Assembly (NCBI GenBank): GCA_030590865.1 | Contig: JAUVCD010000001.1 | Coordinates: 1-47,141 of the forward strand | Source: Myxococcales bacterium | GTDB taxonomy: Bacteria; Myxococcota_A; Polyangia; Polyangiales; Polyangiaceae | DNA length: 47,141 nt | Direction of reading: 5' to 3' | Shown here: piece after piece, positions 36,390 through 47,141 of the stretch | Numbering within the stretch: the first letter of the stretch is position 1 | Layout of the letters: each line of letters starts with the position of its first letter | Notes under the pieces: model-generated | The model's input: the letters and a program-made list of their open reading frames with translations, nothing else | What the model was told of the DNA's origin: nothing | Databases searched by the model: none | Translations under genes and position numbers: made by a program

Positions 36390-37952
36390 ATGAGAAGGAA
36401 GATGGGTCGTCGCGAATTCCTCGAGCGGATGGGTGCTGGTGTCGCCATCGTCTCGGTGCCGCTGATCGCCTCCGGCTGTGGTGAGCCGTTGCATGTCGCA
36501 CCCCCGCCCCAGGGCCCGCCCGTGCCGGTCGGGGTGCCCCTCGGCTATTTCGATCGCTTCGGCATCGACACCGCGATGCTGCAGCGTGTGCTCGCCAAGG
36601 GACTGTCCCAAGGTGGCGACTACAGCGAAGTCTTCCTCCAGCACAAGGTGAGTCACTGGGTGGGCATGGAAGACGGCGAGGTCAATCGCGCCTACACGAC
36701 GGTGGCTCTCGGCGCAGGCCTTCGGGTGCTCAAGGGAGATGCCACCGGTTTCGCCTATTGTGAGGACCTGGCGGAGCCGGCTCTCCTGGCGGCGGCGGCC
36801 ACGGCTGCCGCGGTGGCCAACGGTCAACCCCACGCGCGCCCGGCATCACTGGCTGCCACCGAGATCAAGAGCGCCTACCACATCGAGGTGCCCTGGACCG
36901 AGGTGGGGATCGATAAGAAAATCCCCATCATTCGCCAGAGCGACCAAAAGGCACGGGCGCGGGACAAGCGGGTGATCAAGACGACCATCTATCTGTCCGA
37001 CGAGACCTCTCGAATTTTGGTCGCCGACTCGGAAGGCCGGCTCGTCGAGGACAACCAGCCCATGGCCGTGCTGTCCGTCCAATGTGTGGCCGAGCAAGGT
37101 GGCAAGACCGAGACCTCTCACAAGAGTACTGCGGCTCGTGCGGGCCTGTCCTTCTTCAGTCCTCAGGTCATCGAGCGGGTGGCCCATGATGCCGCGGACT
37201 TCACGACTATCTTGTTCGACGCCGTCGAGCCGCCGGTCGGTGAGCTGCCGGTGGTCTTGGCCACCGGCATCACGGGGATTCTGCTGCACGAGGCGATCGG
37301 TCACGGCATGGAGGCCGACTTCAACCGCAAAGGGGTCTCGGTCTTCGCCGATCGCATTGGCAAGCGGATTGCGCCAGAGCACGTCACCATCATCGACGAT
37401 GGCACCAATCCCGAGATGCGCGGCTCCATCAACGTCGATGATGAAGGGGCAGCTAGCCAGCGAACCGTGCTGGTGGAAAAGGGCATCCTCCGGTCCTACA
37501 TGCATGACCGCATCTCGGCACAACACTTCAAGACCGCCGGCACGGGCTCAGGCCGGCGCCAGTCGTTCCGTTTTCCACCGGTGCCTCGGATGCGCAACAC
37601 CTACATGCTCGACGGGCCGCACAAGCGTGATGAGGTCATCGGGTCGGTCAAGAAGGGCCTCTACGCCGAGGTGTTCTCCAATGGCCAGGTGAACATCGGT
37701 CCCGGGGATTTCACCTTCTACTTGAAGCACGGTCGGCTCATCGAGGATGGCAAGCTGACCTCTGTGGTCAAGGACGCCAACCTGATTGGCAATGGCCCGA
37801 AGGTCCTGGACACCATCGACATGGTTGCTGACGACATGAGCATGTATTCCGGTGCCGGTTATTGCGGCAAGGACGGCCAACGCATCCCCGTTGGCTTTGG
37901 TCTTCCAACGGTGCGGGCCGGTGCCATCTCCATCGGCGGGAGGACGTCATGA
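36390..37952 (+). CDS. TldD-family metalloprotease with twin-arginine lipoprotein signal
   Basis: A 520-residue protein of the TldD/PmbA group. The zinc site LLHEAIGHGMEADF has HEAIGH at 300-305, and the C-terminal GYCGKDGQRIPVGFGLPT holds the conserved cysteine ligand, so it should be the active subunit. In E. coli TldD-TldE unfolds and cleaves peptides, including the microcin B17 leader. Unusually, the N-terminus MGRREFLERMGAGVAIVSVP then ASGC carries a twin-arginine motif and a lipobox, implying Tat export and lipid anchoring. GGAGGT five bases before the ATG is a strong ribosome site. It overlaps its partner gene by four bases (ATGA). Confidence 0.92.
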   Translation: MRRKMGRREFLERMGAGVAIVSVPLIASGCGEPLHVAPPPQGPPVPVGVPLGYFDRFGIDTAMLQRVLAKGLSQGGDYSEVFLQHKVSHWVGMEDGEVNRAYTTVALGAGLRVLKGDATGFAYCEDLAEPALLAAAATAAAVANGQPHARPASLAATEIKSAYHIEVPWTEVGIDKKIPIIRQSDQKARARDKRVIKTTIYLSDETSRILVADSEGRLVEDNQPMAVLSVQCVAEQGGKTETSHKSTAARAGLSFFSPQVIERVAHDAADFTTILFDAVEPPVGELPVVLATGITGILLHEAIGHGMEADFNRKGVSVFADRIGKRIAPEHVTIIDDGTNPEMRGSINVDDEGAASQRTVLVEKGILRSYMHDRISAQHFKTAGTGSGRRQSFRFPPVPRMRNTYMLDGPHKRDEVIGSVKKGLYAEVFSNGQVNIGPGDFTFYLKHGRLIEDGKLTSVVKDANLIGNGPKVLDTIDMVADDMSMYSGAGYCGKDGQRIPVGFGLPTVRAGAISIGGRTS

Positions 37953-39277
37953 GCGCGACGCTTCTCGAGCGGGCAAGAGCCACCGTCCAAGCAGCCAAAA
38001 AGCGGGGTGCCCAGAACGTGCGGACATCGGTCTATCGCAATCGCGGCAGTCGGACCGAGTGGCGGGACGGCAAGCTGGATCGGTTGCGGCAATCCACCCG
38101 CCTCGGGCTCACCGTCACTCTGTTCGTGGACGGGCGTTACTCGTCCAACCAGACCAACGACCTGCGCCCCGAGGCGATCGAGAGTTTTCTCGACGAGACC
38201 ATTGCCGCCACCCGCGTCCTTGCGAAGGATCCGCACCGGCGGCTGCCGGACCGGTCGCGCTACGGCGGCCGTTTCGACGGCAATCTACAGATCTATGATG
38301 GGCCGGGAGCCAAGGGGGTGACGGCCGCTGATCGGCAACGAGCGGCCCAAGAGCTGGAGCAGGCTGCGCGGGCGGCCCCTGGGGCCGACAAGATTGTCTC
38401 GGTGACGACGAGTTGTTCGGACATGCTCGGTGAGAGCGCAATGGTCACGTCCAACGGGATGGAGGGGTCTCGGCAAGAGACGAGCTTCTCCCAGTTCGCC
38501 GACACCTCGATTCGCGGCGAAGGGAACCGCAAGCCGGCGGGCTGGTGGTACGCGACCAGCCGCCACCAAGCCAAGCTTCCCTCGGTCGAATCGATCGGTC
38601 GCGAGGCGACACGCCGGGCGATGATGAACCTAGGCGCCAAGCCAGAGCCTAGTGGCGAGTACCCTTGCATCATCGAGAGCTCGGTGACCGGGCGCTTACT
38701 CCGTGGGTTATTTCGCCCCCTTTATGGGAACGCCATCCAACAGAAGCGCTCGTTTCTGGCCGACAAGCTAGGACAGCAAATCGTCAGTCCGATCCTCTCC
38801 ATCACCGATGATCCCTTGCTCCCTGGAGGTCATGGCTCGGGTGACTTCGACGGCGAAGGGATGAGCACCGTGGCTCGGAAGGTCCTTGACCAAGGGGTGC
38901 TGCGGTCCTTTTTCATCGACACCTATTACGGCAGCAAGCTCAAGATGGAGCCGACGACGGGCACGACGAGCAACCTGGTCTTCGTTCCAGGGGACAAGGA
39001 CTTGCCCCAGCTGCTGACCAAGCTGAAAAAGGGCATCCTGATCACCGGCTTCTCGGGCGGCAACTCGAACCCGGCCACGGGCGATTTTTCCGTCGGAGCT
39101 CGGGGCCAGTGGATTGAGGACGGTAAGCCGGTGCGGCCGATCAGTGGGATGAACCTGGCGGGCAACCACTTGAGCTTCTGGAAGCAGCTGCGCGAGCTCG
39201 GCAACGACCCCTACGAATATTCAACCATCCGTTGTCCGTCGCTGCGCTTCGCCGCGGTGCAGTTTTCTGGGAGTTGA
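37949..39277 (+). CDS. PmbA/TldE-like partner of TldD
   Basis: A 442-residue member of the same family, lacking the HExxxH zinc motif, as expected for the TldE/PmbA subunit that pairs with TldD. Family features: TRLGLTVTLFVDGRYSSNQT, FLADKLGQQIVSPILSITDD, GDFDGEGMSTVARKVLDQGV, LRSFFIDTYYGSKL and ITGFSGGNSNPATGDFSVG. The start ATG overlaps the tldD stop and GGGAGGAC lies just upstream. No signal peptide of any kind is visible, in contrast to the partner. It would have to cross the membrane as a folded complex with TldD if the two work together. Confidence 0.9.
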   Translation: MSATLLERARATVQAAKKRGAQNVRTSVYRNRGSRTEWRDGKLDRLRQSTRLGLTVTLFVDGRYSSNQTNDLRPEAIESFLDETIAATRVLAKDPHRRLPDRSRYGGRFDGNLQIYDGPGAKGVTAADRQRAAQELEQAARAAPGADKIVSVTTSCSDMLGESAMVTSNGMEGSRQETSFSQFADTSIRGEGNRKPAGWWYATSRHQAKLPSVESIGREATRRAMMNLGAKPEPSGEYPCIIESSVTGRLLRGLFRPLYGNAIQQKRSFLADKLGQQIVSPILSITDDPLLPGGHGSGDFDGEGMSTVARKVLDQGVLRSFFIDTYYGSKLKMEPTTGTTSNLVFVPGDKDLPQLLTKLKKGILITGFSGGNSNPATGDFSVGARGQWIEDGKPVRPISGMNLAGNHLSFWKQLRELGNDPYEYSTIRCPSLRFAAVQFSGS

Positions 39278-39312: not shown

Positions 39313-41616
39313 TCAATCAGGCAGTGGCGGCGGCGGGGCGATGCCGGTGCTGAGCAGCTGGCAGTCTCCAAACGGTACCGGGCAGCCGCAGAGGTTGCCG
39401 CCCTGATTGTCGATCTGGTAGTCGAGGCCGGACGCGGTTTCGCCGTTGATGTCGATGGCCTGGCAGGCGAGGGCGACGCTCTCGAGAATCATTCGAGCGC
39501 CGAATGTCGCGCAAGCAGCCCGGTCACTGCCTGAAATTCTGGACGAGTGAATCCTGGTTGTGCCGAGCCCGAGCAACGAGATGGCGACGACCCCATCGCC
39601 AAAGGTGTCATCCTGAGGGTCCGAAACCGAGTCCCGCACAATCACTCGCTCGAGGAGCAAATCCGAGTCGAGGCTGGTCACGCCGGCGATGGAGCTTTGT
39701 TCGACGATCGTCGAATAGACCTCTGCATTCGACATGTGGGCGGTGGCGGGGTTGTCCTGAGCATGAATCCCGCGACCACTGAGCGGGAAGGCGCTCGCCA
39801 GCGTGTTGCGGATCTCGCTGGTCTCGATGAGAGCCTGGGCTCCGGTGACCAGCACGCTCAGCTCGTGGTTGCTCTCGAGCAGGCAGGACCGCAGCGTGCC
39901 GCTGGCGGATAGGTCAATCTCCAGGGCATCCTGGATGATGACCCCGCTGCCGTGACGACCGTCAGCTCGCGGCTGGGTGTCTCGCACGACGCTTGCTTCG
40001 ATGGTGACGTCGGAGCCCAACACCAGGAGTCCAAGGTCGCTCGCCCGCTCCACCAAGGAATAGGCGATGGTGGCGCTTGAGGGGGCGGCATTGTCGAGGT
40101 CAAAGCTGATCTCGATGCCCCAACCGCCGAGATCGAGAGCCTCGGTGGTTCGGATGGCGGTCGCCTCGATGGTGGCGCTCGAGCCATGCAGGCCGATGCC
40201 GCGGGCCGCATGATCATCGATCAGCGACGACTGCAGGGTCAGCGTTCCAGGCATGCCGGAGGCGTCCGGCATGACGTGGATACCGTCGCCGCTGCTGCGT
40301 CGCACTACCGTCGCTGTAATCGTCGCCTCGCTGCCCAGGACGTTGATGCCCCCGGTCAGGTTATCCTCGACGACTGAGGAGCTCAGCTCGCCGAAGGAGC
40401 CATTGTCCAGCCAGAGCCCCTCGGCCGGCATCCCGTTTCCCTCCGGGAGGGTGCCGCGCACGACCGTGGCCTCAACCGTTGCGATACTGGCACTGATCCA
40501 GGCGCCCAGATGGCGATTGTCGTCGATGAGCGAGCTGCGCACCGTCAGGACGGTCGGCGTGTCATCGTTGGGGCTTGGTGCCGCCACGATGCCGTAGCCC
40601 AAGACGCCAGCCTGGGGTTGGGTTCCCCTGATCGAGCTTCGCTCGACGGTGAGGGTGGCGCCGAAGCTGCTCACCCCTACCGCCACATTGTTCTCTACCA
40701 GTGAGCCCCGCAGGGTGAGCGTCGCCTCTCCGGTCTCGTTTTCCGCGTAGAGACCTTCCATCCCACAGTCGTGAATCCACAGTTGCTCGGCGAGCACGGC
40801 GGTCGAGCCGAAGTGGGCAATGCCTAGCTTCGGGCCCGTAATGGCCAGGTTGTGCAGCTCGCTGCCATCGGCACCCGCATGGATGTTCACCGCGCCCGAC
40901 GGGTTAGCGCTGCCCACCAACTCCACCATGTCCGGACAGCGTCCCCACAGCCGAACGGGCTTGTTGGCGATGGTAATGCTGCCCCCATAACTGCCCGCGG
41001 CGATTGCCACGATCCCGCCGGAGGTCGCCGCGCCGATGGCTTGCGGCAGGCTGGTCCATGGCTTGAGCTCGGTTCCATCGCTGTCACCACCGCTGTAGGA
41101 CTGGTCGACGTAGACGGTGGTCGAGTCGACGGGAATGTCGCCCCAAGGGGTGGAACCGCAGGGCGCGATCTCACGGCATTCGGCGTCGCCGGGAACCGCT
41201 AGCGTTCCTGGGGCACAAGGCGTGGCCGGTAGGATTGCCTCGCAGCCACGGTCGCCGTCGTGCACGAAGCCCGGTGCGCAGCCGTCGCTTGGGATGCCGG
41301 CGGGTTGGCAGCCACCGTCGGTGATCGGCAGCTCGCCTGGTGGGCAGGGCATGTCCGCCGGGAGGCCGACCGTCGTGCACTGTTCATCGATGAACAGCTC
41401 GTTCGCTCCGCAGGGCGGTGCATAACAGCTGCCGTCGGCGAGCTCGATTTGGCCCTCGGGACAGCCGCTGGGCACGCAGGCACCGTCAACTAGCACTTCG
41501 CCGGGCCCGCAGTCTTCCTCTGCGGGTAGTGACTCGGCGTCCTCCCCTCCGCAGGCAAGCTGCGAGGCGGAGAGCAGCAAGATGGCGGGCAGGTTCAGCG
41601 CTAGGCTGCGTCCCAT
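39313..41616 (-). CDS. Right-handed beta-helix surface lipoprotein
   Basis: A 767-residue exported protein. The signal ends in SQLAC (lipobox, Cys22). Residues 35-155 are a Cys-rich run of short repeats (CGPGEVLVDGACVPSGCPEG, CAPGFVHDGDRGC, CAPGTLAVPGDAEC). From about 170 the start TTVYVDQSYSGGDSDGT then PWTSLPQAIGAATSGG is the typical entry to a pectate-lyase-like helix, and dozens of rungs follow with the pattern A-T-I-E-A-T-V-V-R (TVEATVVRGT, TITATVVRRSSGDGIHV, TIEASVVRDT). No lyase catalytic residues are recognised. The rungs suggest a long stiff stalk or carbohydrate-binding surface. It is convergent with the PmbA-like gene. Confidence 0.85.
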   Translation of the reverse strand: MGRSLALNLPAILLLSASQLACGGEDAESLPAEEDCGPGEVLVDGACVPSGCPEGQIELADGSCYAPPCGANELFIDEQCTTVGLPADMPCPPGELPITDGGCQPAGIPSDGCAPGFVHDGDRGCEAILPATPCAPGTLAVPGDAECREIAPCGSTPWGDIPVDSTTVYVDQSYSGGDSDGTELKPWTSLPQAIGAATSGGIVAIAAGSYGGSITIANKPVRLWGRCPDMVELVGSANPSGAVNIHAGADGSELHNLAITGPKLGIAHFGSTAVLAEQLWIHDCGMEGLYAENETGEATLTLRGSLVENNVAVGVSSFGATLTVERSSIRGTQPQAGVLGYGIVAAPSPNDDTPTVLTVRSSLIDDNRHLGAWISASIATVEATVVRGTLPEGNGMPAEGLWLDNGSFGELSSSVVEDNLTGGINVLGSEATITATVVRRSSGDGIHVMPDASGMPGTLTLQSSLIDDHAARGIGLHGSSATIEATAIRTTEALDLGGWGIEISFDLDNAAPSSATIAYSLVERASDLGLLVLGSDVTIEASVVRDTQPRADGRHGSGVIIQDALEIDLSASGTLRSCLLESNHELSVLVTGAQALIETSEIRNTLASAFPLSGRGIHAQDNPATAHMSNAEVYSTIVEQSSIAGVTSLDSDLLLERVIVRDSVSDPQDDTFGDGVVAISLLGLGTTRIHSSRISGSDRAACATFGARMILESVALACQAIDINGETASGLDYQIDNQGGNLCGCPVPFGDCQLLSTGIAPPPPLPD

Positions 41617-41715: not shown

Positions 41716-42645
41716 ATGAGCGATGACAAGTATCGGCTAGTGACCCGCAGCGATTTTGACGGCTTGGTGTGTGCCGTGCTGCTCAAAGAGCTGGATTTGG
41801 TGGATGACATCAAGTTCGTTCACCCCAAAGACATGCAAGACGGGAAGATCGAGATCACCGATCGGGATATCACCACCAACCTTCCCTATGTCCCCGGTGT
41901 CTATCTGGCCTTCGACCATCACCACAGCGAGATGATCCGCGTCGGTCAACACGACAACTACCTCTGCGATCCCAACGCCGCCTCGGCCGCGCGGGTCGTC
42001 TACGACTACTACGGCGGCAAGGAGAAGCTCCCCGAGATCTCAGAAGAGATGATGGTGGCTGTCGACAAAGGTGACTCGGCCGACTTCGTCGAGGACGACA
42101 TTCTCAATCCCAAGGACTGGGCCCTGCTCAACTACCTGATGGACGCCCGCACCGGGCTCGGGCGGTTCCATGACTTCCGAATCTCGAATTACGCCTTGAT
42201 GATGCAGCTGATCGACTATTGCCGCGATCACACCATTACCGAGATCCTCGAGCTGCCTGACGTCCGTGAGCGGGTCGATGTCTACTTCGACGGCGCAGAG
42301 AAGTTCAAGGAGCAGCTCGAGCGTTGCAGCACGGTCCACAAGAACCTGGTGGTCCTCGACCTCCGCAACGAAGAGACCATCTGGCCGGGCAACCGCTTCA
42401 TGATTTATGCGGTCTTTCCCCAATGCAACATCTCGATCCACCAGATCTGGGGCAAGCAGAAGCAGAACACAGTGTTTGCCGTCGGCAAGTCGATTCTCGA
42501 TCGTGGCTCGCTGACCGACATCGGTGAGCTGATGCTCACCTTCGGCGGTGGGGGACATGCAGCAGCGGGCACCTGCCAGATCGAGAACGACAAGGCCGAC
42601 GAGGTGCTCGAAGAGCTCATCGACATCATCACCCAGGACGGTTGA
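41716..42645 (+). CDS. DHH-family phosphoesterase (exopolyphosphatase-like)
   Basis: A 309-residue cytosolic enzyme of the DHH/DHHA1 superfamily. The first metal motif is SDFDGLVC (Asp13, Asp15), then FDHHHSE and VDKGDSADF; the C-terminal DHHA1 part has GGGGHAAAGTCQ for substrate binding. Such enzymes hydrolyse phosphodiester or polyphosphate bonds (nanoRNase, cyclic-di-AMP phosphodiesterase, pyrophosphatase and exopolyphosphatase types); the exact substrate is unclear. AGAGAGGTGA just before the ATG is a good ribosome site. The last 17 bases overlap the end of the convergent radical SAM gene. Confidence 0.9.
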   Translation: MSDDKYRLVTRSDFDGLVCAVLLKELDLVDDIKFVHPKDMQDGKIEITDRDITTNLPYVPGVYLAFDHHHSEMIRVGQHDNYLCDPNAASAARVVYDYYGGKEKLPEISEEMMVAVDKGDSADFVEDDILNPKDWALLNYLMDARTGLGRFHDFRISNYALMMQLIDYCRDHTITEILELPDVRERVDVYFDGAEKFKEQLERCSTVHKNLVVLDLRNEETIWPGNRFMIYAVFPQCNISIHQIWGKQKQNTVFAVGKSILDRGSLTDIGELMLTFGGGGHAAAGTCQIENDKADEVLEELIDIITQDG

Positions 42646-43969
42646 TCGCGCCCGCTCGGTCGAGGCGGGCACTTGGATCCGGTGCGTCCCTGGCCTCCAG
42701 CACGATGCGATAGAGGCCGTGGTCCATCGGAGCGCCGCTCGCCGGCGACTGGAGGACCAGCCGTTCGCGCTGCCCCAGCTGGTCGAAATGGCGGGCACGA
42801 TAGTGGCAGAATGGATTGTTGCCAGGCCGTCCCAGCACGGCGTGGGCCGCGAAACTACAGCCGCCAAGGCAGGTCTCGCCAAAGGGGCACTCTCGGCAGA
42901 ACCCCCACAGCTGGTCGACCGTCAGTCGTCGGGTGAAGCCGAGCTTAGCCGATTGATCCCAGATCTCAGCGAGGGGCTGCTCTCGGACGTTGCCGCCGAT
43001 GTAGCTGTCGCCAGGCAGGGATAGACAGCCTTTGATTGCTCCATCGGACTGAATGCCGAGCACCAGTCGTCCAGCGAAGCAGCCACAGAAATGGTCGCGC
43101 CCGTCAACGGTCAGCGAGCGCAAGAGGGCCTCTTCCGGTCCGAAGTAGCCCAGGTTGTTGCCTGGCATGACTAGTACGCCGTCGTCGAAGGCTCGCCGCT
43201 TGAGCGCCGCAATGCGGGGCAGCAGCTCGATCAGATCCCAGGGTTGCAACATCATGTCAGGTCGATCGGCGGCGCGACCCAATGGCACGGTGATCTGCAC
43301 TTGCCAACCACTGACGCCCTGGTCGCGCAGGTATCCGTAGATCCCTTCGAGATCGTGGCGGTTCAGTCGGTTCAGGTTGGTGTTGACCCCAGTGCCCATG
43401 CCGGCGTTCTTCAGTCGGCCCAGTGCCTGGGTTGCCCCGACGAAGCTGCCGGGGACGCGCATCAGATCGTGAGTCTCGGCGAGGCCGTCGACGCTCACCG
43501 AGGCCATCTTCATGCCTGCTGCGGCCATTGCGGCGGCGAGCTCTTGGGTGATGCCGAAGCCCCCGGTGACTAGCGAGCACACCACTTTGGCCTCGCTGAG
43601 GGTCCGGACTACCGGCAACAAGCCTTCGTGCAGATAAGCCTCTCCACCGATGAGCACGACCTCTCGGGCCCCCAGATCGGCGAGCTGGCGTGCCACGTCG
43701 ACCACCTCGGCCACCGATAGCTCAGCGGGTCGCGCCACACCGGCCCGAGAGCCGCAATGCCGGCAGCCCTGGTCACAGCGTAAGGTCAGCTCCCACACCA
43801 CATAGGCCGGGTGAGGTGGCTCGTTGAACACCTCCAGGCGCCGGTGGCGAAACGCCGTGGTCCCGTCGGTGGCCGTCGGCGCCAGTGCCTTGTCCCTATC
43901 GTCGATGGTCGTGCCGTCGCTCAGGGTGCTGCGTAGAGCGAGTTGTCGCAGCCTGGGAAGTCGACGCAA
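42629..43969 (-). CDS. Radical SAM/SPASM maturase-like enzyme (copy A)
   Basis: Up to 446 residues. The SAM cluster motif is CDQGCRHC (Cys65, 69, 72), followed by VLIGGEAYL and SVSVDGLAETHDLM. The SPASM part near the C-terminus has CGCFAGR, GAIKGCLSLPG and FCRECPFGETCLGGC, giving ligands for auxiliary clusters. It is clearly paralogous to the enzyme at 44640-45731, sharing the order GI-S-G-IKGCLSLP, GN-R-QPLA-IW and DQL-GFCR-C. The gene follows the cysteine-repeat lipoprotein gene on the same strand and overlaps its end. The start is uncertain: the only early candidate is TTG at 43969, with GTG at the codon of Val47 as an alternative. Confidence 0.88.
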   Translation of the reverse strand: MRRLPRLRQLALRSTLSDGTTIDDRDKALAPTATDGTTAFRHRRLEVFNEPPHPAYVVWELTLRCDQGCRHCGSRAGVARPAELSVAEVVDVARQLADLGAREVVLIGGEAYLHEGLLPVVRTLSEAKVVCSLVTGGFGITQELAAAMAAAGMKMASVSVDGLAETHDLMRVPGSFVGATQALGRLKNAGMGTGVNTNLNRLNRHDLEGIYGYLRDQGVSGWQVQITVPLGRAADRPDMMLQPWDLIELLPRIAALKRRAFDDGVLVMPGNNLGYFGPEEALLRSLTVDGRDHFCGCFAGRLVLGIQSDGAIKGCLSLPGDSYIGGNVREQPLAEIWDQSAKLGFTRRLTVDQLWGFCRECPFGETCLGGCSFAAHAVLGRPGNNPFCHYRARHFDQLGQRERLVLQSPASGAPMDHGLYRIVLEARDAPDPSARLDRAGAINRPG

Positions 43970-44457
43970 TCCTCGTCGTCACAGTCGACCTTCTCGTCGC
44001 CGTCATCATCGATCTGGTTGTCGCAGATCTCGACCGGCGCCGCATACTCTTCTCCGGAGCAGCCCGGGAAGTCCCAGCAGGCCTCATCAGCGCAGTCGAT
44101 GGCGTTGTTGTAGTTGTCGTCGATCCCGTTGTCGCAGATCTCGTCGGCCGGGCCGGCGTACATCATCCCGCCCCCGCAACCGTAGTCACCCCAGCAGGCC
44201 TCGTCGGCGCAGTCGATGTCGCCGTTGCCGTCGTCGTCGATCCCGTTGTCGCACACCTCGGTCTTGTCCTTGCGATCGTCGTCAACCGTCGAGCCGCAGG
44301 CCGACACGCCGACGACCAACCCCACGGTGGCCGGTAGCAGGGCGGGTAGCTTCCACCACTGTTGCCGGGGCCGCGCGAGACGCTTGGTGCGGTCCAATTG
44401 ATCGCAGAGTTCTTCGAGATAGGCGGTAGCTAGCTTGGCGTGCTCGTTGTTGCTCAT
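43921..44457 (-). CDS. Cysteine-repeat lipoprotein, candidate substrate of the flanking radical SAM enzymes
   Basis: A 178-residue protein. Residues 1-33 form a charged helical leader (HAKLATAYLEELCDQLDRTK) longer than a normal signal n-region; then a hydrophobic segment with a perfect lipobox VSAC (Cys54). Three repeats follow at 67-105, 106-142 and 143-178, each with C-x13-C-x4-C-x5-C, starting CDNGIDDDGNGDIDC in the first. Each repeat closes with Tyr-Ala-(Gly/Ala)-Pro at 100-103, 138-141 and 175-178, the last being the very C-terminus. The Asp-rich half is a common myxobacterial motif, perhaps Ca-binding. GGAGG five bases before the second ATG (44457) sets the start. Being a radical SAM substrate is inferred from context. 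Confidence 0.85.
   Translation of the reverse strand: MSNNEHAKLATAYLEELCDQLDRTKRLARPRQQWWKLPALLPATVGLVVGVSACGSTVDDDRKDKTEVCDNGIDDDGNGDIDCADEACWGDYGCGGGMMYAGPADEICDNGIDDNYNNAIDCADEACWDFPGCSGEEYAAPVEICDNQIDDDGDEKVDCDDEDCVDFPGCDNSLYAAP
43924..44259 (-). repeat. Three tandem 36-39-residue coding repeats
   Basis: Repeat units lie at 44143-44259, 44032-44142 and 43924-44031. Cysteine spacing is identical in all three, while length differs only between the last cysteine and the Tyr-Ala-x-Pro end. Codons differ between units, so the duplication is old and the cysteine and tyrosine positions have been kept by selection. Confidence 0.88.
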
Positions 44458-44639
44458 CATTGCCTCCGATGCGATCCTGCAGAGCAATGCAACATTCGTG
44501 CTTGTCGCGCAGCCCCTTCAACTAGCTAGAATCGCATGATGTCGCGATCCCGTCCAAGCCTCTCTTGTCATGATCGCCAACCAATCTGGCACACAGTGGC
44601 ACGGCCGCGGTGTACCCGCTATCTTGGCTACTCGAGGTC
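44458..44639 (+). promoter_or_regulatory. Divergent intergenic region between the repeat lipoprotein and radical SAM copy B
   Basis: This 182-base gap must hold the promoters for both sides of the locus. Toward copy B there is TTGTCG (44502-44507) and TAGAAT (44527-44532), but the 19-base spacing is longer than ideal for a housekeeping promoter. An exact palindrome CTAGCTAG (44522-44529) overlaps the -10-like box and could be an operator. On the other side, GGAGG of the lipoprotein gene lies at the left edge. A shared control region would keep substrate and both enzymes in step. Confidence 0.35.
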
Positions 44640-45731
44640 ATGCTCAAGCTGTTGCAGAAAGCCGGTTACCGTCCTCGTCGTGGCGTTTGGGAGCTGACCC
44701 TCGCCTGCAACCTCAACTGTCGGCACTGCGCCTCCCGTGCTGGCCAGGCTCGGTCCGATGAGCTCACGCCAGCTGAGGCGCTGCAACTGGTCGAGGACCT
44801 GGCTGATCTAGGCTGCCGCACCATGACCCTTGGCGGTGGTGAGCCTTTGCTCCGTCGCGACTGGCCTGAGATCGCTGCCGCGTTTCGGTCTCGGGGCGTG
44901 CGCACCAACATGGTCACCAATGGGCGCACCTGGACCCGGGACACCGCCCGCACCGCTCGATCAGTGGGTCTCGAAAGCGCCGCCTTCAGTATCGACGGAC
45001 TGGAAGAGACCCACACCTATGTGCGCCGCGTGGCTGGCCACTGGCAGCACCTGCTCGAGTGCATCGAGACCTGCCACGCCGAGGGGCTCACCGTCAGCGT
45101 GATCACCACCGTGAACCGTCGCAACTTGCCAGAGCTCGACGATCTATACGAGTTGCTGGGCGCCCACGACGTGGACCGTTGGCAGCTCCAGCTCGGCAAC
45201 CCCACGGGCTTCATGGCTGACCATTCCGATCTGTGCATCTTTCCCGAGGACGTGTTCGAGGTGGTTCCCAGGATTGCTGCCATGTGTCGCCGGCCAGGCA
45301 AGCCGAAGATCTTTGCCGGTCACAACGTGGGCTACTACGGCGATCCCGAAGAGGACTTGCGGGACAGCGGTGGCCCCATCCCCTTCTGGATCGGCTGCAC
45401 GGCGGGCTGCTCGGTGATTGGCATCGAGAGCAACGGCAACATCAAGGGCTGCTTGTCTTTGCCGTCGGCCATGAACGAGGTGGACGCCTTCGTCGAAGGC
45501 AACATCCGTGACCAGCCACTCGCCGACATCTGGCGCAGCAAAGATGCTTTCGCTTACAACCGCCAGTTCGCCCCTGACCAGCTCGGCGGCTTTTGTCGCA
45601 CCTGTGACTATGCGGAGATTTGTCGCGGTGGCTGCTCGTGGACCGCTTTCGCTCACAGCGGCGCGCGCAATGAGAACCGGTATTGCTACTGGTATCAGCT
45701 GCAGCAGCAGCAGGACGACTCCAAGCAGTGA
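44640..45731 (+). CDS. Radical SAM/SPASM maturase-like enzyme (copy B)
   Basis: A 363-residue enzyme. The SAM cluster motif is CNLNCRHC (Cys23, 27, 30), followed by TLGGGEPLL and FSIDGLEETH. The SPASM region has IGCTAGCSVIGIESNGNIKG, CLSLP and FCRTCDYAEICRGGC. The C-terminus ends in a Gln-rich tail. The gene diverges from the cysteine-repeat lipoprotein and its paralogue lies on the other side of that gene. SPASM proteins mostly modify ribosomally made peptides or enzyme side chains. The ATG at 44640 has GAGG only two bases upstream; a GTG at 44610 is the alternative. From memory, paired SPASM maturases of this look occur in myxobacteria, but I cannot verify the family. Confidence 0.9.
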   Translation: MLKLLQKAGYRPRRGVWELTLACNLNCRHCASRAGQARSDELTPAEALQLVEDLADLGCRTMTLGGGEPLLRRDWPEIAAAFRSRGVRTNMVTNGRTWTRDTARTARSVGLESAAFSIDGLEETHTYVRRVAGHWQHLLECIETCHAEGLTVSVITTVNRRNLPELDDLYELLGAHDVDRWQLQLGNPTGFMADHSDLCIFPEDVFEVVPRIAAMCRRPGKPKIFAGHNVGYYGDPEEDLRDSGGPIPFWIGCTAGCSVIGIESNGNIKGCLSLPSAMNEVDAFVEGNIRDQPLADIWRSKDAFAYNRQFAPDQLGGFCRTCDYAEICRGGCSWTAFAHSGARNENRYCYWYQLQQQQDDSKQ

Positions 45732-45771: not shown

Positions 45772-47141
45772 TCAGGGCCTGCGCTGACGTCGCCGGCAGC
45801 GGGCAAGCACGCCGAGCAGCAATAGGCTGAGCGCACCGAGCTTGGTGCGCTCATGGCTGGCAGCTTGGTGGGGCAGGCCGATCACTCGGCAGCCGCAGCT
45901 GCTGTCGGTGTTGGGGTCGTCGCCATCTCCTGACGAGCTGCCGCTGGTTGAGCTGGTAGTGGTCGTGCTCGAGCCGCCGGCGCCTGTGCCCGAGCCGCCG
46001 GTGCTCGCGCCGCCCGCACCGGCACCGCTACCGCCGGTGCCACTTCCGGTGGTGGCCGTGATGGTGAGGCTTGCGGTGCTGATTGCGCCGCCACCGTCAC
46101 CATCGCCTGCTTTGCCATCGGTCCACGCATTGATGAACGCCATACCGGCCCGCAGCTCGATGGTTTGGGAGGCCGTAGCATCTGCTGGGATCGTGCCTGC
46201 AAGGGTGACGGCGATGGTCTCAGGCTCGCCGACTACCTCGGCCAGCTCGATCACCACGGGTGTCGTGCCACTGAGTTGATAGCTCACTGCATTGCCATTC
46301 ACCGTGACGTCGGTGATCTGAAGCCCAGCTAGGAAACCTGGCAGCGTGACCTCGAGCCGGTCCACGCCGTGGTCACAGGGCAGCATGTTGGGTAAGGCCG
46401 CTAGGGCCATCGTCACTGGGGTCCCAGGGTCGACCTCGGTGGGGTCGACCTCGCCGACGAGGGCCCAGGTCGCTCGCGGGCCGCCGTCGTAGCCCTGGCC
46501 GCCATAAGCTCCCAGATCGCGGTCGCTCCCGTCGGCGTCCTTCGAGCCCGATGAGATGACGTCCACACAAGGACTTGCCGGTTGTAGGTGGAAGTCGTCG
46601 TTCCGTGGATCGTTGTCGTCGCTCCAGGTCACGAACATGGGATCCAACGAGAAGTCGGTGGGCGCGGCCCCACAGGAGGTGAAGTCGCTCTGGTGGTTGT
46701 AGACATCGTTATGGGCCGACTGAGTCAGTCCATCGCACCAAATGCCGTACTCGTTGTTATGGGCGACGATGTTTTCTGCGATGGTGCGGGCATCCATGCT
46801 GAGCAGATAAATGCCAATATCTCCGTCTGAGATATTGGGGTTGCCATTGCTGACGACCGTATTGCCCTTGAAGTCGGCGGTGGCATTGACGCCGTCGAGC
46901 CCGTCGTCCTCGTTGTCCGCCGATACGTTCCACAAGACCTGGGTCGCACTGGCCCCCTCGACCCACACGCCTCGGAAATTCCAATAGATCAAATTGCCGC
47001 AGATGGTGGCTCCGGCGTTTTGCACGTTGACGCCAAACTGCGGATGGCTTCCGCCGGCGTTGCGAATCGAGAAGCCCGAGATGACGACGCCGTCGCCCCC
47101 AACGTTCACCACCGTTCCACTCGACGAGCCGTCGAGAATGG
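45772..47141 (-). CDS. Beta-helix surface protein with MYXO-CTERM tail (5' end cut by window)
   Basis: The frame stays open to the right edge (ILDGSSSGTVVNVGG), so the start lies outside; the GTG at 47112 is probably internal. The visible part begins with right-handed beta-helix rungs (VVISGFSIRNAGG, ATICGNLIYWNFRGVWVE, TIAENIVAHNNEYGIW), ends that domain with SPCVDVISSGSKDADGSDRD, then has a beta-sandwich region (about 215-350 from that GTG) of the conserved-repeat kind. A Gly/Ser/Thr stalk precedes the tail: CGC, a hydrophobic stretch LGALSLLLLGVLA and CRRRQRR. This is the MYXO-CTERM layout, a sorting signal expected to be processed at its cysteine and to place the protein on the cell surface. 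Confidence 0.88.
   Translation of the reverse strand, partial: ILDGSSSGTVVNVGGDGVVISGFSIRNAGGSHPQFGVNVQNAGATICGNLIYWNFRGVWVEGASATQVLWNVSADNEDDGLDGVNATADFKGNTVVSNGNPNISDGDIGIYLLSMDARTIAENIVAHNNEYGIWCDGLTQSAHNDVYNHQSDFTSCGAAPTDFSLDPMFVTWSDDNDPRNDDFHLQPASPCVDVISSGSKDADGSDRDLGAYGGQGYDGGPRATWALVGEVDPTEVDPGTPVTMALAALPNMLPCDHGVDRLEVTLPGFLAGLQITDVTVNGNAVSYQLSGTTPVVIELAEVVGEPETIAVTLAGTIPADATASQTIELRAGMAFINAWTDGKAGDGDGGGAISTASLTITATTGSGTGGSGAGAGGASTGGSGTGAGGSSTTTTSSTSGSSSGDGDDPNTDSSCGCRVIGLPHQAASHERTKLGALSLLLLGVLARCRRRQRRP

Follow-up and report, generated by a model that had tools for sequence, protein, structure and literature searches.

A candidate leader-guided tyrosine-modification system for a surface lipoprotein in a Polyangiaceae genome

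We analyzed a stretch of 47,141 nucleotides (hereafter the window, to which all positions refer) from contig JAUVCD010000001.1 of the Myxococcales bacterium assembly GCA_030590865.1 (Polyangiaceae), in which a small lipoprotein gene is flanked by genes for two radical S-adenosylmethionine (SAM)/SPASM enzymes, denoted A and B. This locus is likely to be a leader-guided system for modification of Tyr residues in a surface lipoprotein, probably by excision of tyramine, in which, as with known spliceases, most of the Tyr would be lost from the backbone. A preliminary description of this DNA had proposed the lipoprotein as the substrate, which is very probably correct: its leader co-occurs with enzyme B, the leader is coupled to Tyr-x-x-Pro (YxxP) sites, and related enzymes are fused to lipoprotein tails. 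The same evidence supports the accompanying proposal that the product would be a modified surface lipoprotein.

The lipoprotein, its leader and its tyrosine sites

The lipoprotein gene (43921..44460, minus strand) starts at ATG 44460, preceded by the Shine-Dalgarno sequence GGAGG, and its 179-amino-acid product consists of a leader, a signal peptide with lipobox and three acidic double-disulfide repeats, with Tyr-Ala-x-Pro after each. The lipobox Cys is preceded by approximately 54 residues, and the leader and signal peptide as far as this Cys (44296..44460, minus strand) bear the conserved pattern HAxLxxAYLEExCxxLD...WW...GC, as seen in alignment A3 and a leader-only search. No Nif11 or NHLP leader profile matched the window lipoprotein, and its leader represents a separate family (A3). 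The Cys residues of the repeats lie at positions 79/93/98/104, 118/132/137/143 and 155/169/174/180 (numbering of the 188-residue open reading frame, ORF), with spacing of x13, x4 and x5 in all three repeats. A motif scan placed the closing sites, all on the minus strand, at 44149..44160 (site 1, YAGP in the context MMYAGP), 44035..44046 (site 2, YAAP in EEYAAP) and 43924..43935 (site 3, the C-terminal YAAP in SLYAAP), confirming the three C-x13-C-x4-C-x5-C repeats closed by Y-A-x-P that had been described before. Three or more Y[GA]xP motifs per protein occurred in 2 of 100,000 shuffles of the lipoprotein.

The Cys repeats are members of NF033662 (acid_disulf_rpt; 47.5 bits against a cut-off of 41, 3 stretches), a family well represented in these genomes (G000 has 32 repeat matches), most members of which, unlike the window protein, lack both leader and YxxP site. 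Repeat proteins were gathered from system-bearing and related genomes and divided by the leader profile A3, and a Y[AGSM]xP motif was scored when it lay no more than 22 residues after a repeat. Such a motif followed 65 of the 79 repeats in leader-bearing proteins (n=16), whereas it followed 1 of the 316 repeats in leaderless ones (47 ORFs, some being overlapping copies of one gene), where 3 motifs were present in a total of 25,556 residues. As an internal control, the system-bearing genome G017 encodes a lipoprotein (L258) with NF033662 repeats and with neither leader nor YxxP. These comparisons show the leader and the Tyr site to be coupled, with the Cys repeats as a generic element; abundant as they are without leader, enzyme or YxxP, the repeats look like generic disulfide spacers. 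Regarding the target residues suggested earlier, the coupling of leader and motif thus favours the Tyr of YAxP, and the abundance of repeats outside such systems speaks against Cys. In relatives of the leader family, the residue after Tyr was Ala or Gly at about equal frequency (YA 37 vs YG 34).

Co-occurrence of leader and enzyme B, and natural fusions

The leader-only profile, which scored the window lipoprotein at E 3.9e-28, was searched against 184 genomes of the order and gave strong matches (E<1e-8) in G000, G017, G025, G032, G113, G116 and G121 (5.9e-10 and 1.2e-8 in the last). B-type enzymes (E<1e-140) were found in exactly the same 7 of the 184 genomes (Fisher 8e-13, ignoring kinship and with both cut-offs chosen after the scores were seen). 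A gap separated these matches from the others: the next leader matches were at 3e-4, and the next enzyme was at 1e-118, in G026, on a contig that also carries one weak leader match. Congeners of the carriers lacked both leader and B at these cut-offs (G001 and G002 in genus g1, G015 and G117 in genus g14), which counts against mere common descent. The lipoprotein and B genes form divergent pairs at seven distinct loci (the window, two in G025, one in G032, two in G113 and one in G116), and in G017 and G121 both are present as unlinked genes. An A gene beside the leader lipoprotein was found in the window alone and in none of the other six genomes with B and leader. The A and B pair, which the preliminary description had offered as a unit to look for, is therefore not conserved; it is B alone that is conserved with the leader lipoprotein.

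Enzymes and lipoproteins were also found joined in one ORF, in which the enzyme is followed by a membrane segment/lipobox and by Y-G-x-P or related YG repeats, at no fewer than nine distinct loci (at least L134, L137, L138, L143, L144, L220, L346, L347 and L136/L340; the lipobox of L136/L340 was identified by eye and those of the others by script). The tail of L134 contains five YGIP and that of L138 contains YGAP, YGFP, YGVP, YGLP and YGLP; fused substrates mostly have YGxP sites without Cys repeats. The union of enzyme and lipoprotein in one polypeptide is strong evidence that the two would function jointly, and the fused form suggests that the enzyme stands in for the leader.

Enzyme families, candidate chemistry and competing explanations

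Enzyme B (44640..45731, plus strand) is the partner of the leader family and is encoded divergently from the lipoprotein gene; it probably starts at ATG 44640 and not at GTG 44610, the start of the ORF, since ATG 44640 fits the MIKLL.. start of homologues. Enzyme A (42629..43969, minus strand) lies downstream of the lipoprotein gene, head-to-tail on the same strand; its ORF from TTG 43969 overlaps the lipoprotein gene, and GTG 43831 is an alternative start. That two SPASM enzymes surround a small lipoprotein with leader and lipobox, as first described, was borne out by these ORFs and by Radical_SAM and SPASM domains in A and B above the Pfam cut-offs; both also carry CX3CX2C and the full 7-Cys SPASM pattern CX9-15GX4C / CX2CX5CX3C / C. 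The term paralogous, applied to them earlier, holds loosely: they are approximately 38–40% identical and belong to two clades that have different partners, which speaks against a recent duplication. In the enzyme tree (quick search, with Shimodaira–Hasegawa-like approximate likelihood ratio test, SH-aLRT, as the only support), A is placed inside a 58-row clade with a Nostoc TIGR04103 enzyme and GDL enzymes (SH-aLRT 100), its nearest relatives adjoining zinc-ribbon-leader lipoproteins, and B is placed in the neighbouring clade with leader-family and fused enzymes.

The best-matching known chemistry is that of PlpXY from Pleurocapsa, the prototype splicease, which excises tyramine at X-Y-G with a mass change of -135.0757 Da and for which the tag GGPIRPLYGLPI is in use (PMC10533398); PlpX belongs to IPR026482 (PMC11002830). 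As with the PlpXY spliceotides (PMC10533398, PMC11002830), a SPASM radical SAM enzyme accompanies a leader-bearing putative substrate with several sites per precursor that resemble X-Tyr-Gly-x-Pro (PlpA tag PIRPLYGLPI), whereas here the substrate would be a lipoprotein with its leader before the signal peptide instead of a Nif11/NHLP peptide, Ala is found at +1 in the window, and enzymes of relatives are fused to lipoprotein tails. Among NCBIfam profiles, TIGR04103 (nif11-class peptide radical SAM maturase 3) matched both enzymes best (A, 412 bits; B, 317 bits). The Nostoc member with which A nests, found by a plasmid protein search with a myxobacterial A-type enzyme, scored 853 bits for TIGR04103 against the cut-off of 725, and it adjoins a Nif11 precursor ending GGRGSIALYGLPPELF. 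The sequence L-Y-G-L-P is common to the PlpA tag and this Nif11 core, and the identity strongly links TIGR04103 to the splicease; in addition, IPR026482 is presumably the InterPro entry of TIGR04103. Given this best profile, the core next to the Nostoc enzyme and the match to the X-Y-G motif of PlpXY, the most likely chemistry would be tyramine excision, with a loss of about 135 Da at each site, and the shift of -2 Da per site expected in the preliminary description is probably wrong.

In the mechanism that we propose, the leader would precede the signal peptide of the lipoprotein precursor and lie in the cytoplasm, where enzyme B, and perhaps A, would recognise the leader-bearing precursor and, at every X-Tyr-(Ala/Gly)-x-Pro site at the end of a disulfide repeat, alter the Tyr. 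The modified precursor would then be exported, and signal peptidase II, by cutting at the lipobox, would take off the leader together with the signal peptide. What remains would be a protein held by its lipid anchor, in which acidic repeats with disulfide bonds separate three modified sites. This order of modification, export and cleavage is suggested by the position of the leader before the signal peptide and by the cytoplasmic nature of radical SAM chemistry. We infer this order from the sequences, and likewise that Tyr is the residue acted on, that the chemistry is tyramine excision and that A may have a part in it.

Several observations weigh against tyramine excision or against the system as a whole. 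All three window sites are X-Y-A-x-P, with Ala after Tyr where the published PlpXY sites consulted have X-Y-G; A and B score below the TIGR04103 cut-off of 725 bits, so that membership was rejected; and B lies outside the TIGR04103 clade, with moderate deep support. No PlpY-like truncated RiPP recognition element (RRE; RiPP, ribosomally synthesized and post-translationally modified peptide) was detected at the locus, though a divergent RRE may have escaped notice, and a small Nostoc ORF taken as PlpY-like gave nothing convincing when searched against the genome (best match E 2.1). A sequence search for a splicease structure found none. Moreover, no motif lipoprotein was detected near roughly half of the related enzymes included in the tree, in some cases because the contig ends and in some because the substrate is encoded elsewhere.

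These points leave some room for a different radical reaction at the same Tyr site of the same substrate, such as a cross-link, epimerisation, Calpha-Cbeta cleavage without religation or a thioether to a repeat Cys, which we regard as unlikely though worth serious consideration. It would accommodate the deep divergence of B from TIGR04103 and Ala at +1, SPASM relatives catalyse many reactions, and GDL enzymes of A's clade adjoin xYA as well as xYG peptides. However, the most conserved feature of the sites is Tyr followed by Gly or Ala, as in the X-Y-G splice motif, and for the thioether in particular there is no consistent Cys near the Tyr site, the zinc-ribbon-leader lipoproteins being mostly devoid of Cys repeats. 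Modification of the repeat Cys residues themselves, with two enzymes forming different sactipeptide- or ranthipeptide-like thioethers, is suggested by 12 evenly spaced Cys beside two SPASM enzymes, many enzymes of this type being thioether-forming. We consider it highly improbable, because identical repeats are abundant in leaderless proteins without YxxP, YGxP without the repeats is the usual state of zinc-ribbon-leader and fused substrates, and no A gene stands beside the lipoprotein in the other genomes with B and leader. A sactipeptide/ranthipeptide maturase was rejected on the leaderless control set, the Cys-rich core not being the conserved partner of the enzyme.

Chance proximity, in which an ordinary repeat lipoprotein happens to lie beside unrelated maturases acting elsewhere, could draw on how common NF033662 repeats are here (the 32 matches in G000), but it is hard to reconcile with the shared occurrence of leader and B in the same seven genomes, the seven divergent pairs, the leader/motif coupling and the fusions, and we give it very little credence. 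Within the preferred explanation, that the lipoprotein is modified at Tyr under guidance of its leader, it is a nearly even question whether B alone does so, A being either a stray copy with other proteins as its substrates or a remnant of a zinc-ribbon-lipoprotein locus; we lean slightly to the negative. The neighbours of A's nearest relatives, the lack of a zinc-ribbon-leader lipoprotein in the window's own genome at E<=1e-5 and the absence of an A gene at any other B/leader locus argue for B alone, whereas A is intact and its gene immediately follows that of the lipoprotein in the same orientation.

Two further family assignments were rejected. TIGR03913 (GDL motif peptide maturase) gave 360 bits for A and 272 for B against a cut-off of 591.75, and TIGR04133/TIGR04134 gave 134 and 154 bits against 425, the lipoprotein having no match there (cut-off 39.8).

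Related lipoproteins and neighbouring genes

A second set of lipoproteins accompanies A-type enzymes. These begin with a zinc-ribbon leader (CPxCxRHVRxxExxCPFC), followed by a membrane segment, a lipobox and a low-complexity linker with Y-G-x-P sites, and were found in 109 of the 184 genomes, with up to 27 copies per genome. All 109 are among the 117 genomes with an A-type enzyme, and none is among the 67 without (Fisher 1e-41, kinship ignored). In 126 of these proteins, the residue after a Tyr beyond the lipobox was most often Gly (275), then Ala (14). Motif-bearing lipoprotein-like ORFs were likewise concentrated around the enzymes (46/145 within 1 kb vs 20/282 farther away; odds ratio 6.1, p 1.7e-10); the automated neighbour scan overlooked lipoproteins, such as L131, whose ORF had been assigned a start farther upstream, and profile searches took its place. 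Four loci (L145, L159, L197 and L350) encode zinc-ribbon-leader lipoproteins that end in YGCV[FW]PD, mostly PYGCVFPD[ET]AC, where others have YGxP; this may be a second type of site. Adjoining another A-type enzyme is a small non-lipoprotein precursor (L222:8757-9041) with a GG-type leader end and the core '..IPMYGVPLPG', which appears to be a classical RiPP-like precursor within the enzyme clade of A.

The TIGR03913 enzymes, associated with DUF1843 peptides, share A's clade, and their neighbour peptides contain xYG or xYA near the N-terminus (RPYGPAM, VLYAAGI, QPYGAGI). Unlike the lipoproteins described here, these peptides are not lipoproteins, and the zinc ribbon belongs to the enzyme; in the myxobacterial systems it forms part of the lipoprotein leader. 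GDL-type and Tropicibacter enzymes (L233:3905-5455, L235:3947-5371, L234:3695-5317) carry a C- or N-terminal zinc ribbon like that of the myxobacterial leader, a resemblance that would fit transfer of a recognition module between enzyme and substrate. By analogy, TIGR04133/TIGR04134 appears to be a looser parallel in Bacteroidota: a radical SAM/SPASM gene adjoins a lipoprotein with (M/E/C)YG[TSC]P soon after the lipobox, but the enzymes are more distant and the lipoprotein lacks a long leader and usually has one site. Near related radical SAM genes in Bacteroidota and Treponema there are also lipoproteins in which CYYGPPP or CAYGGPP comes after the lipobox (L125:3262-3588, L129:4991-5302, L107:5263-5469), with no match to TIGR04134 where this was tested.

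More tentatively, these systems may constitute a myxobacteria-wide class of lipoproteins matured in a RiPP-like manner, in which a leader or a fused enzyme guides modification of Tyr-(Gly/Ala)-x-Pro and signal peptidase II acts as leader peptidase. As far as tested, what is new beside the spliceotides is the lipoprotein substrate with its leader before the signal peptide, the enzyme-lipoprotein fusions, Ala at +1 and the coupling of sites to repeats. Among the papers available to the search, none mentions TIGR04103, TIGR04133 or TIGR04134, and none was found that connects lipoprotein substrates with radical SAM/SPASM enzymes. PlpXY spliceases and spliceotides are said to be the subject of Morinaka 2018 and Scott 2022; the latter reportedly predicted 939 splicease systems, under a title that speaks of 'peptides and proteins', and may already include some of those described here. 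If the proposal is true, backbone splicing, or some Tyr modification akin to it, would extend from secreted peptides to surface lipoproteins across much of the order, and lipoprotein export would double as leader removal. The cell surface would display arrays of backbone keto-amides or of another new Tyr-derived group, with a role outside natural-product chemistry, for example in covalent adhesion or protease inhibition. One motif would then tie together TIGR04103, GDL, the lipoprotein systems and the more distant TIGR04133 pairs, and the proposal offers sites that can be tested, a mass shift to look for and enzyme-substrate fusions that occur in nature.

Elsewhere in the window, two TldD/PmbA-family metallopeptidases are encoded at 36390-37952 and 37862-39277 (both plus strand), separated from enzyme A by about 3.4 kb that hold a DHHA1-like gene and the gene for a beta-helix protein; TldD/PmbA pairs take part in the maturation of some modified peptides. 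Right-handed beta-helix surface proteins lie on both sides of the cluster (39313-41616 and 45772-47139, both minus strand), the second of which has a C-terminal hydrophobic stretch followed by arginines that resembles a sorting signal.

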